Position numbers and translations under genes: made by a program
Notes under the pieces: model-generated
What the model saw: only the letters and a program-made list of their open reading frames with translations
Databases searched by the model: none
What the model was told of the DNA's origin: nothing
Origin: Paraflavitalea sp. CAU 1676
GTDB lineage: Bacteria; Bacteroidota; Bacteroidia; Chitinophagales; Chitinophagaceae
Direction of reading: 5' to 3'
DNA: 64,000 nt
NCBI RefSeq assembly: GCF_029223285.1
Contig: NZ_JARHUJ010000002.1
Location: 310,001 to 374,000 of the forward strand
Shown here: piece after piece, positions 8,723 to 13,514 of the stretch
Position numbering within the stretch: the stretch's first letter is position 1
Layout: every line of letters begins with the position of its first letter

Positions 8723-8749
8723 TTACTGATTTTTTTACCAATATTACTG
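8723..8749. promoter_or_regulatory. putative AraC operator, copy A (upstream of iorB-type gene)
   Basis: TTACTG occurs at 8723 and again at 8744, a 21-bp step (two helical turns), with TACCA at positions 14-18 of the element. It agrees with copy B (13488) at 22 of 27 positions and with copy C (13371) at 21 of 27, counted by hand. Direct half-sites at this spacing are typical of AraC-family DNA binding. It lies in the gap between the molybdenum hydroxylase start and the cupin stop. Confidence 0.65.
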
Positions 8750-8773
8750 ATTGGTGTTACGGCGAGGTTATTG

Positions 8774-9259
8774 TCAGGGTTTTCGGTATACTGAATCTGT
8801 GACGGCTTCCAGCCAAACCGTTTCCCCTTTTTCCCGTCCGGTTATGGCCACCTGCACGAAATTGCTGTCGATACTTGCTCCGTGCCAATGGGATACATTG
8901 GGAGGACATTTTACAATATCTCCTTTTCGCAGGATGCGCTTTGCGGTTCCTTTTTCCTGGTAATAGCCGGCGCCCTCCAACGCGAGTATGATCTGGCCTG
9001 CAGGATGACTGTGCCATTTGGTTCTTGCGCCAGGCGCGAAGGTTACACTGCCAACAGCTATTGAGTTCAGGCTGTCTGCATTAACCAGCGAGTTTAACCA
9101 AACGTCCCCTGTGAAATTGCTATTGGTGATCTTTTCGCCTTTGGGGAAAAGGGGAGTAGATAGTTGTGCGACGGCAGTGTTCTCTTGTATGGCATGTTGT
9201 TTACAGGAGATTGCTATTACTACCATCGCAAGCGCGATCTGAACAAATGCAATTTTCAT
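8774..9259 (-). CDS. cupin-domain lipoprotein
   Basis: 161 residues. The N-terminus MKIAFVQIALAMVVIAISCK is a lipoprotein signal (lipobox IAISC), so the protein should sit in the periplasm on a membrane. Cupin motif 1 is WHSHPAGQIILALEGAG (two His and a Glu as metal ligands) and motif 2 is PPNVSHWHGA. The same HWHGA block occurs in the two other cupins of this island (11979-12433 and 14906-15307). The gene follows the triple-fusion gene by 5 bp, so it is in the same leftward operon. Cupins of this type accompany carboxymuconolactone decarboxylases and aldo-keto reductases in many genomes, but the activity is not established. Confidence 0.85.
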   Translation of the reverse strand: MKIAFVQIALAMVVIAISCKQHAIQENTAVAQLSTPLFPKGEKITNSNFTGDVWLNSLVNADSLNSIAVGSVTFAPGARTKWHSHPAGQIILALEGAGYYQEKGTAKRILRKGDIVKCPPNVSHWHGASIDSNFVQVAITGREKGETVWLEAVTDSVYRKP

Positions 9260-9264
9260 GATGG

Positions 9265-11448
9265 CTATTTGAGGTGTTGGGTGAAAAAGTCAGTCAGTTT
9301 TTTGACGGCCTGGGGTACATATTCGGGCTTGTCGTACATGTCGATGTGCGACGCGCCGGACACTTCAAACAGCTCTTTTGGCTGTGCGGCCCTGTTGAAT
9401 GCGTCATCACTGAAATATTTGGAGTCGGCCTGGTTACCCACTATCAGCAACAGCGGACGAGGAGCGATCATTTCTACATGGTCGAGGGCTGTAAAGTTCA
9501 TCAATTTATCCAGGCTGGTGAATGCATACTTGTTCTGCGAGTTGGGGTGCTGTCCTCTTGAGGTTCTATAGTAATCGTATCCTTCTTTGTACATGCCGGT
9601 TGCTGAAGCTGGAATTTCCTCGCGGGTATTGAATACGTAGTTCACGTATTTAATGGGTTCTCCATTGGCTTCCCGTGTGCGTTGCCTGCCTACTTCTTCC
9701 AGTCGCTGTTGCATTTGCGGCTTCAGTACGCCCGCCAGTCCCTCGCGGCGAAGCTGCCCAAGATCCACCATGCTTACAGTTGCTACTGCTTTTAACCTGC
9801 GCTCGGTTTCGGCTGCTTTTATGGCAAAGCCGCCACCCGCGCAGATTCCCAGTACGCCGATTCGATTGGGATCAATTGATGGATGGGTACTTAAATAGTC
9901 GGTTGCTGCCCTGAAATCTTCGACCCGCATGGCGGGGTCTTCTAAAAACCTTGGATAACCGCCGCTCTCTCCCTGGTAGGAGGCATCGAACGCCAGTGTA
10001 ATGAATCCCTGCTCTGCCAGTTTTTGCGCATAAATGCCCGCGGTTTGTTCTTTTACGCCGCCTGCAGGATGGCCCACCAGGATGGCCGGATACTTCCTGT
10101 TTTTATCAAATCCTTGCGGCATGTAGAGATTTCCCACTACACTGATGTTCTCGTTGGGGAAGGTGACCTTTTTTACAGTTACTCCATTGGCGGTAGAAGC
10201 AACTGCGGCATCCTGTGTTCTATACATTTCGTTGATGTTTTTAGTCATGGTGTTTCCCTCTTGCCAGCCGACCCTGGTGGATATGGTGAATGCAATGGCT
10301 CTAAGCTGCTGTTCGGTGAGTCCGACGTTTCTGCCTACATTTAAGTGTCCCCGCAATTGTCCTTCTGTTCCGCTCATGCTTGCGAGTGCTGAAATTGTTG
10401 CAATTTCCCGGCTTTGATAGTCGAGGTTATCCCGGCTGAATATATCTGCAAACAGGTGTTCCTTCAGGAAGGTATCAATTACAGGAACATAGCGTTGTGG
10501 CTCACCGATGGCGGTTGTTCCGGTTAAGGTTGTTTGAACTTCTTTCCCAAACGCAAACCTTCCCTGATTGTACGCTACTGCCGATGGCATTTTTCCTGCA
10601 ACATCCTTTTTGCCTGCCTGTTTACGTTCATTGGCCACGGCCTGCAGTGTGTTGATGGCGTTAAGGCTACGGGGAAATCCGGCATAGGCGTATAGCTGTA
10701 CCAGAATTTCCTTTGTTTCATTCATACTCAGGCCTGCCTCCAGTCCGTCATTTAAGGCGCTTCTTAATAATGTTTGGTTGCCGGTTGCTGTTGCCGCTGC
10801 AATGGGAACAATGCTTACCTGCCTGGGCGTAAGTGCTGCTGTTGGTAATAAATTGATCCTTTTCAGCCAGGCTTTTACCAGGCTTTCTGCTTGGGTCGCT
10901 TTTTCTCCCTGTATTGTGAGCAGTTTACCATCTCTTTCCGAACCGCCTTCCATTGAAAATCCTTCCACTACTTTACTGTTGGGACATAATTCTTTTACTG
11001 TGTCGAAACTGCTTCCAATTCCGTAACCTCCGTTTGTGTTGAACGGGGCTATCGTTTTGCCGCTCAGATCATATTGATGCAAAAACGTTTTCATGGGAGG
11101 CGGCAGTTTCATACCCCAGGTTGGAAAGCCGACAAATACAATATTGTACTTTTCAATGCTATCTATTTTTGTTTTCAGCGGTGGCAGATAGCCACTTTCA
11201 TTCTCCCGTACGACCTGCTGTACCGTTTGCTGGTAATTGGCGGGATAAGGGTTTTGCAACTCAAGCGCCACCAGATCACCTCCCATATTTTTATGTATTA
11301 TTTCGGCTATTGCTTTGGTATTGTTGGTGCGCGATAAGTACACGATCAATATCTTGCCGTCTGAACTCACTTGCTGCGCTTTTGAGCATTCTGCGAGCAG
11401 TATTGCTGCCACCGTCAACAACCAAAGACTGGTACTGAACTTTTTCAT
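9265..11448 (-). CDS. triple fusion: flavodoxin, carboxymuconolactone decarboxylase, dienelactone-hydrolase-like
   Basis: 727 residues from the ATG at 11446-11448; an upstream in-frame ATG at 11529 would overlap the preceding gene. Residues 1-25 are a signal peptide. Residues about 32-195 are a flavodoxin (FMN phosphate loop SRTNNTKAI, then FPTWGMKLPPPM). Residues about 210-415 hold two carboxymuconolactone-decarboxylase-like helical repeats (SMNETKEILVQLYAYAGFPR, then YQSREIATISALASMSGTEG). Residues about 425-727 are an alpha/beta hydrolase with nucleophile elbow GICAGGG, a Cys as in dienelactone hydrolase, and a late His in SGASHIDMYD. The parts normally occur as separate proteins. The gene lies in the leftward operon with the aldo-keto reductase and cupins. 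The reaction is unknown. Confidence 0.85.
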   Translation of the reverse strand: MKKFSTSLWLLTVAAILLAECSKAQQVSSDGKILIVYLSRTNNTKAIAEIIHKNMGGDLVALELQNPYPANYQQTVQQVVRENESGYLPPLKTKIDSIEKYNIVFVGFPTWGMKLPPPMKTFLHQYDLSGKTIAPFNTNGGYGIGSSFDTVKELCPNSKVVEGFSMEGGSERDGKLLTIQGEKATQAESLVKAWLKRINLLPTAALTPRQVSIVPIAAATATGNQTLLRSALNDGLEAGLSMNETKEILVQLYAYAGFPRSLNAINTLQAVANERKQAGKKDVAGKMPSAVAYNQGRFAFGKEVQTTLTGTTAIGEPQRYVPVIDTFLKEHLFADIFSRDNLDYQSREIATISALASMSGTEGQLRGHLNVGRNVGLTEQQLRAIAFTISTRVGWQEGNTMTKNINEMYRTQDAAVASTANGVTVKKVTFPNENISVVGNLYMPQGFDKNRKYPAILVGHPAGGVKEQTAGIYAQKLAEQGFITLAFDASYQGESGGYPRFLEDPAMRVEDFRAATDYLSTHPSIDPNRIGVLGICAGGGFAIKAAETERRLKAVATVSMVDLGQLRREGLAGVLKPQMQQRLEEVGRQRTREANGEPIKYVNYVFNTREEIPASATGMYKEGYDYYRTSRGQHPNSQNKYAFTSLDKLMNFTALDHVEMIAPRPLLLIVGNQADSKYFSDDAFNRAAQPKELFEVSGASHIDMYDKPEYVPQAVKKLTDFFTQHLK

Positions 11449-11464
11449 ACGTGTTTTGCTGACG

Positions 11465-12469: not shown

Positions 12470-13312
12470 TTATTTTCTCTCACCCAGCCACTTTACCATG
12501 GCGGGGTCGCGGTGATCAAAGAAGCTGCTTGCGTTTGTATCCAATGTTTTGATCATCTGCATGTCTTCTGCACTCAACTCAAAGTCGAATATGTTGAAGT
12601 TCTCTATCATCCTTTCTTTACGAACGGATTTTGGGATGGCAACCACGCCGCGTTGGTTTAGCCACCGCAGCACTATCTGTGCGATCGTCTTGTTGTGCTT
12701 CTTTGCGATCGAAAGCAACAGCTCGTTTTGAAAAAGATTGTTTTTGCCTTCTGCAAATGGTCCCCAGGATTCGATCTGCACATTGTTTTCTTTCAGAAAC
12801 TGCTGTGCTTCTATTTGTTGGTGAAATGGGTGCGTTTCGATTTGGTTTACTGCTGGAATAATGTCGTTGTGGATGATCAGGTCAATTAGCCTGTCGGGGT
12901 GAAAGTTGCTGACGCCTATTGCTTTTACTTTTCCTTCCCGGTACAGATCTTCCATAATTCTCCATTCACCATATACGTCTCCATAAGGTTGATGGATTAG
13001 GTACAGGTCGATGTAGTTTGTTTGCAGCTTATTCAGTGATTCTTCGAAGGCCTTCCGGGTGCTGTCATAGCCATCGGTTTCTATCCACAGCTTGGTTGTG
13101 ATGAATAACTCTTCGCGCTTAACACCGCTTCGTTTAATGGCATTTCCAACTGCTTCTTCGTTTTGATAAGACGCTGCTGTATCTATTAGCCGGTATCCTG
13201 TTTCGATGGCGTCCATTACGCTTCGCTCGCACTCAGCCAGGTCATTTACCTGGAAAACACCAAAGCCAAGCATAGGCATCCCGACTCCGTTATTTAGTTT
13301 TACCGTTTTCAT
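12470..13312 (-). CDS. aldo/keto reductase
   Basis: 280 residues from the ATG at 13310-13312. It is an AKR5-like (2,5-diketo-gluconate reductase type) TIM barrel: [14 protein letters not shown] at the start, [18 protein letters not shown] (catalytic Asp and Tyr), ITTKLW (Lys), LIHQPYGD (His), [10 protein letters not shown] and a C-terminal [17 protein letters not shown] for NADPH. It would reduce aldehydes or diketones. It is the first gene of the leftward operon and shares a 270-bp promoter region with the divergent AraC regulator. Putative operator copy C lies 59 bp upstream of the start. Confidence 0.92.
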
Positions 13313-13370
13313 TCGCTTCTTTTTTGTAATGCAAAGGTCCAACTGTTTCCTGTAGGTCCTGATATATGGA

Positions 13371-13397
13371 TTACGGGTTTCCTTACCAATGCTACTG
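13371..13397. promoter_or_regulatory. putative AraC operator, copy C (upstream of aldo/keto reductase)
   Basis: TTACGG at 13371 and CTACTG at 13392, again 21 bp apart, with TACCA at the same internal position as in copies A and B. It agrees with copy A at 21 of 27 positions and is the weakest of the three in its half-sites. It sits on the aldo-keto reductase side of the divergent promoter region. Confidence 0.55.
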
Positions 13398-13487
13398 GTC
13401 TACGATGAATGCTTTTTGTGGTGTGGGCGGGGATAGGGCAGCTCTTTACAAAGATGGGTTCTATTGATTTGGCAATCCTTATACCAT

Positions 13488-13514
13488 TTACTGGGATTAT
13501 TACCATTATTACTG
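13488..13514. promoter_or_regulatory. putative AraC operator, copy B (upstream of araC-type gene)
   Basis: TTACTG at 13488 and TTACTG at 13509 (21-bp step) with the central TACCA at 13501-13505. It ends 68 bp before the regulator start, a position suited to autoregulation. A further TACCATTTACTG string overlaps its left edge (13482-13493). Confidence 0.65.

Follow-up and report, generated by a model that had tools for sequence, protein, structure and literature searches.

The 64,000-nucleotide stretch analysed here (the window), positions 310,001 to 374,000 of contig NZ_JARHUJ010000002.1 of Paraflavitalea sp. CAU 1676, carries a gene for an AraC-type regulator (araC) and three copies of its putative operator, designated A, B and C. 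An earlier note on this DNA had described three matching 27-bp cores, and each was confirmed to the nucleotide (positions below). Of the identities it gave over 27 positions, that of B and C (19) stood, while the other two had been interchanged: we found 21 for A-B and 22 for A-C. The principal features are listed with expectation values (E) from R1, a sequence-only model built from 25 sites upstream of araC orthologues and of araC itself; C was in training, and A, B and a remote site, D, were outside it.

8714..8751, + strand: operator A (core 8723-8749), upstream of the - strand molybdenum (Mo) hydroxylase genes; R1 E 3.5e-8, outside training
13362..13399, + strand: operator B (core 13371-13397), upstream of the - strand aldo-keto reductase operon; R1 E 9.4e-5, outside training
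13479..13516, + strand: operator C (core 13488-13514), between the divergent aldo-keto reductase operon and araC; R1 E 1.8e-6, in training
13583..14479, + strand: AraC-type regulator gene, HTH_18 (helix-turn-helix, HTH) at 1.8e-17; modelled N-terminal beta domain and two HTH motifs
12470..13312, - strand: aldo-keto reductase, 46% identity to Escherichia coli DkgA
6357..8636, - strand: Mo hydroxylase large subunit, MoCoBD_1 and MoCoBD_2
5862..6329, - strand: Mo hydroxylase [2Fe-2S] subunit, Fer2_2 and Fer2

The operator is longer than the 27-bp core. It covers about 37 bp and consists of two direct half-sites of 14 bp each, TATACAGATTACKG (half-site 1) and TACCAATATTACTG (half-site 2), repeated with a period of 21 bp; the consensus of 69 distinct sites from named loci is GTATACAGATTACGGATTTTTCTACCAATATTACTGAT. 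Self-identity peaked at period 21 (0.57) and did not exceed 0.38 at any other period between 14 and 23, as in the tandem direct repeats of AraC/XylS proteins. The sites had been described as two-turn direct repeats, and of this description the 21-bp period was borne out, not the 27-bp extent. Each half-site contains two conserved blocks about one turn apart, the pattern to be expected if the paired HTH motifs of a single subunit contact them.

Across both strands of the window, B and C alone matched core A at 21 or more of 27 positions. The next best match, a lone 27-mer at 58454, shares 19 of 27 positions with core A and scores below 17 bits on the operator matrix. The segment at 45034-45046, previously proposed as a weak fourth target, was rejected as an operator: its best matrix score was -15.7 bits, versus 34-49 bits for A-C, and it was not in the R1 list for the own genome. 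In that genome (8.84 Mb, 23 contigs), a pattern in International Union of Pure and Applied Chemistry (IUPAC) code gave 7 matches with up to 3 mismatches, against 3 with a reversed control pattern. The fourth-best of these (2 mismatches) is site D, at C5:105549, about 80 bp before another aldo-keto reductase gene and oriented as A and B. The short motif part TACCA-N0-3-TTACTG is common, with 38 genome matches against 27 for its control. R1, with full scoring of 150 of the 5007 first-look candidates, ranked A, D (8.8e-8), C and B at the top, followed by C1:689539 at 0.0042 and then by 12 places at 0.85-9. C1:689539 was discarded as an operator: it lies within a glyoxalase-like coding sequence, scores 2.6 bits over 38 columns and has no -7 box at the offset. 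The regulon suggested for 5.8-15.3 kb extends past the window to site D on contig C5.

The site is conserved beside orthologous regulators. Relatives of the regulator were found at E<=1e-30 in 49 of 119 genomes, 28 of them (the own genome and 27 others) with at least 59% identity. A matrix of the four own-genome cores placed a site about 70 nt before the regulator gene in 27 of 30 loci, some of these sites being weak (13-17 bits) and accepted for their position. The remaining three were the 67% relative L034, where R1 gave a weak site (E 0.0175) 73 nt upstream, and two paralogues of 43% identity, L044 and L045. Training of R1 used 25 of the 27 sites, omitting the weak L038 and L042; a second model, R2, of operator plus -7 box, used 22 of the 25 (L024, L037 and L041 omitted for an unclear -7 block). 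Among 80 named regulator loci, the best site lay outside training in 77. In 70 of these 77 the best matrix match fell 40-110 nt upstream of the regulator, and 74 had a site of at least 18 bits within 40-200 nt, the exceptions being L201, at a contig edge, and two relatives from Segatella and Prevotella, L209 and L210. Column-shuffled control matrices (n=20) matched 0 or 1 of 76 loci at 15 bits. Represented among the loci are Chitinophagaceae, Larkinella, Spirosoma, Rufibacter, Pontibacter, Mucilaginibacter, Pedobacter, Sphingobacterium, Chryseobacterium and Flavobacterium; Larkinella arboricola DSM 21851 and Segetibacter koreensis DSM 18137 are two non-pathogenic strains with an orthologue. 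In one of the relatives (G012, L127 7760) an operator has a Mo-hydroxylase operon on one side and, on the other, a shortened regulator frame of 134 amino acids, one internal stop counted.

In the scan of 118 relatives, R1 matched at E<=1e-3 in 29 genomes, of which 28 have a regulator of at least 59% identity; the other is G106, whose site (22.4 bits) was treated as a chance match since the surrounding 15 kb held no matrix match of at least 17 bits. Held-out draws weigh more because most of the relatives' sites are in training. In a family draw of 322 held-out genomes (a total inferred from the numbering, 394 minus 72), with the regulator counted at E<=1e-95, 93 had both regulator and site, 4 the regulator only, 10 the site only and 215 neither. 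Three of the four regulator-only genomes have a weaker site at the expected place and the fourth has its regulator at a contig edge. The site-only genomes include five (G279, G412, G349, G399 and G335) with the site before Mo-hydroxylase or aldo-keto reductase genes, one (G244) with the site before a cupin gene, two (G156 and G368) without a clear assignment, and two (G218 and G338) whose sites reach only about 8 bits on the matrix. A diverged AraC gene adjoins the site in G399 (48%) and G244 (39%). In G279, G412 and G349 (L230, L231 and L236), which have no close orthologue of the regulator, the operators precede Mo-hydroxylase genes and may be used by a diverged AraC. In a class draw of 295 genomes, a strong site was present in 17 of 24 genomes with the regulator (E<=1e-85), three of the 17 being training genomes, and in none of the 271 others. 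The proposed link of one AraC gene to three matching sites is supported.

The operators are directed away from araC and toward the oxidoreductase operons, and araC-distal sites are likewise oriented toward a gene on the opposite strand. In a set of 149 sites, which counts L132/L095, L144/L096 and L188/L112 twice and leaves out the extra matches of L209 and L210, the start of the opposite-strand gene lay within 420 nt in 140, at a median of 60 nt. The first genes at these sites encode 135 distinct proteins, whose clusters were labelled from one representative each. The largest is aldo-keto reductase (61), followed by DUF4440/SnoaL-like (17), carboxylesterase (14), flavodoxin (9), cupin-DUF4440 (7) and Mo hydroxylase large subunit (4); the rest form small clusters and 15 singles, including short-chain dehydrogenase/reductase (SDR) and zinc alcohol dehydrogenases. 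Counterparts of site A precede the Mo-hydroxylase orthologues in G004, G001 and G012, a conservation set beforehand as a test, and a second site similar to B occurs in G004 (L092 8361). These comparisons support the Mo-hydroxylase and aldo-keto reductase operons as probable targets, as had been proposed. All sites keep the same orientation with respect to the oxidoreductase genes, so that C, assigned in the earlier note to araC, is chiefly an operator of the divergent aldo-keto reductase promoter, shared with araC.

The sigma-A -7 box of Flavobacterium psychrophilum is placed at -12 to -5, as TAnnTTTG, in PMC9723704. Candidate boxes accompany the operators as follows.

8684..8691, - strand: predicted deviant -7 box TAAATTAC of the Mo-hydroxylase promoter; like letters at the equal place in L092 and L095
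13332..13339, - strand: predicted -7 box GACCTTTG, driven by operator B, operator edge 22 nt away
13449..13456, - strand: predicted -7 box CATCTTTG, driven leftwards by operator C; block conserved in orthologues
13554..13561, + strand: predicted araC -7 box TAATTTTA, one letter off TAnnTTTG, 37 nt from the operator edge, the commonest orthologue spacing

Among 103 araC-proximal sites, a set in which at least two genomes are counted twice (L144/L021 and L188/L037), the distance from the operator edge to the start of.A..TTTG on the target side is 22 nt at 66 sites and 21 nt at 9 (75/103 together). At araC-distal sites, A..TTTG stood at 21-22 nt in 13 of 17; of the four exceptions, three belong to Mo-hydroxylase promoters and read TAAATTAC or TAATTTCC, while the fourth reads GATCTTTA. 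The deviant box, TAAATTAC or TAATTTCC, occupies the usual offset in the Mo-hydroxylase promoters of three related genomes (8684-8691, L092 and L095). If the -7 box lies at -12 to -5, as in the paper cited, the half-sites would occupy about -36/-49 and -57/-70 relative to the predicted start. On this basis, transcription in the window is predicted to start near 8679, 13327 and 13444 (leftwards) and near 13566 (rightwards). No conserved -33-like block was found at the operator-linked promoters of the orthologue loci.

On the araC side of the same 103 sites, the spacing between the operator edge and TA..TTTG is 37 nt at 57 loci, 36 or 38 nt at 6 and 27 nt at 7. The last class, one helical turn shorter, comprises Sphingobacterium and two Chitinophagaceae genomes (G071 and G010). 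Where measured, box and gene are separated by 27-34 nt in loci of the 37-nt class and by 29-31 nt in those of the 27-nt class; exceptions are L191, whose box lies at 26 nt and is 55 nt from the gene, and L187 (site 184 nt upstream, box at 155). The one-turn shift fits a face-of-helix constraint and is the best sequence evidence for autoregulation, which the kept distance of the araC-side box makes probable, in line with the earlier claim. Looping between B and C by conserved phase was not supported, the two being 117 bp apart here versus 69 bp in G004.

An AlphaFold2 model of the regulator, made with 36 orthologues (predicted local distance difference test, pLDDT, 86.9; predicted template-modelling score, pTM, 0.59), shows a beta-rich N-terminal domain, a helical linker and two HTH motifs. 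Searched with this model, Foldseek returned full-length AraC-family proteins such as Rns at the top, with a different domain arrangement (root-mean-square deviation about 22), followed by RhaR and AraC (regulatory domain) and by MarA, SoxS and AraC (DNA-binding domain). The C-terminal part is an AraC-type double HTH, with HTH_18 above cut-off and fold matches to the MarA, SoxS and AraC DNA-binding domains. The N-terminal part, without a match to a Pfam family, is a jelly-roll in the predicted model (template-modelling score 0.74 to the RhaR domain and 0.52-0.57 to the AraC domain, by target length). A ligand could not be deduced from the fold.

At araBAD, AraC occupies two direct half-sites, the proximal one adjoining the -35 region, and compensates for a missing promoter contact. 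The present system resembles it in its two direct half-sites, promoter geometry and AraC-like N-terminal and DNA-binding domains; it differs in half-site sequence and sigma -7 box, and looping was not supported for the window. According to PMC5297802 and PMC8262776, YqhC of E. coli is an AraC-family activator whose gene is divergent from its aldehyde/aldo-keto reductase targets, and the latter paper reports evidence for modulation of its own expression. The likeness to YqhC-yqhD-dkgA lies in a divergent regulator and a DkgA-like aldo-keto reductase (46% identity over 259 residues), whereas whole-protein homology of the regulators was not found, the two sharing the HTH part only (28% over 80 residues). 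Predicted direct-repeat motifs of 21-bp periodicity, unique to each group, are described in PMC3870299 for AraC-family rhamnose regulators of Bacteroides and others; these have the 21-bp direct repeat in common with the present operator and differ in their targets. The regulon was not found in the literature searched, subscription papers and regulon databases lying outside the search.

From the operator, its co-occurrence with the regulator, its orientation and spacing and the families of its targets, all read from sequence, we infer binding, activation, autoregulation and a ligand. The comparisons argue that a widely conserved AraC operator and a local regulon are real, and that in all likelihood the AraC-type protein of 13583-14479 activates the operons of A-D through the ~37-bp tandem operator. 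The mechanism would be that of an ordinary AraC-type activator, a kind already known. The regulator would bind the operator, probably as a dimer, on tandem half-sites of 21-bp period and would activate at Bacteroidota sigma-A promoters with a -7 box and no evident -33 box. From the proximal half-site, about 22 nt from the oxidoreductase -7 box, the activator could stand in for the absent -33 contact, in the manner of AraC at araBAD. Operators A, B and D and, leftwards, operator C would switch on the Mo hydroxylase, the aldo-keto reductase operon and the distant second aldo-keto reductase. Operator C would also serve the -7 box of araC and, because it faces this box at a helically phased spacing, the regulator most likely controls its own gene. 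Taken as a whole, the earlier interpretation is partly supported.

Several observations weigh against this account. At E<=1e-95, no regulator was found in 10 of the 103 held-out genomes that bear a site, and in several of these the usual targets are preceded by the site with no diverged AraC beside it. In the class draw, 7 of the 24 genomes with the regulator are without a site at E<=1e-3, and the araC-proximal site is missing from the relatives in Segatella and Prevotella (52-53% identity). The -7 box at site A is deviant and that of the own araC has one mismatch. Sites without a close orthologue in some genomes would also suit binding by another regulator, which we regard as very unlikely given the co-occurrence and the araC-proximal position in held-out genomes. 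An origin of the three sites by chance, or as copies of a dispersed repeat, is barely conceivable: short pieces of the motif are indeed common in the genome, but the copies share no flanking DNA, and the own-genome ranking, the held-out conservation and the fixed spacing all speak against it.

The operator could instead serve the divergent oxidoreductase promoter alone, its nearness to araC reflecting gene neighbourhood without autoregulation. Its orientation does track the oxidoreductase genes, at araC-distal sites too, and the araC-side geometry, which puts the operator at about -52 to -86 relative to the predicted start, departs from standard class II; the araC-side box distance is nevertheless kept, at 37 nt in 57/103 and 27 nt in 7/103, one helical turn apart, and we hold this alternative to be unlikely, though the most serious of those considered. 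The sign of regulation is not readable from sequence alone, and the protein might repress these promoters until released by a ligand; an operator upstream of -35 that leaves the -7 box uncovered, with no evident -33 box, makes this improbable.

The target enzymes probably handle reactive aldehydes or compounds like them. Under the activator account the likely signal, with about an even chance of being right, would be a reactive carbonyl, or an electrophile related to one, that the N-terminal domain senses. This proposal follows from the DkgA-like reductase (46%), from the nearest models of the Mo hydroxylase (NCBIfam aldehyde or xanthine dehydrogenases, all far below cut-off) and from analogy to YqhC-yqhD-dkgA. 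More tentatively, and at somewhat less than an even chance, the protein may be an undescribed carbonyl/electrophile regulator of several Bacteroidota orders, unrelated to YqhC outside the HTH, with one 37-bp operator serving two phased divergent promoters, and with operator and -7 box forming a portable module before scattered aldo-keto reductase, Mo-hydroxylase, esterase and flavodoxin genes. If the activator account is true, many little-studied aldo-keto reductase, Mo-hydroxylase, cupin and DUF4440 operons would come under one regulator and one signal, the way an AraC activator works with a Bacteroidota promoter without a -33 box would become visible, and a small inducible promoter module would be available. 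The operator, its orientation, the -7 box distance and the gene set are defined well enough for direct testing in cultivable Bacteroidota.

The remaining genes around the operators are as follows.

12101..12457, - strand: cupin-like reading frame, apparently truncated (Pfam match covering profile positions 3-40 of 70)
11465..11989, - strand: DUF4440/SnoaL-like protein, domain match
9265..11529, - strand: single reading frame with flavodoxin, carboxymuconolactone decarboxylase and dienelactone hydrolase domains, domain matches
8774..9259, - strand: cupin, domain match
14493..14900, + strand: ABM-domain protein, 3' of araC, domain match
14906..15307, + strand: cupin, 3' of araC, domain match

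The frame at 9265-11529 contains two carboxymuconolactone-decarboxylase stretches, and parts similar to it are separate genes in G004 and G001.

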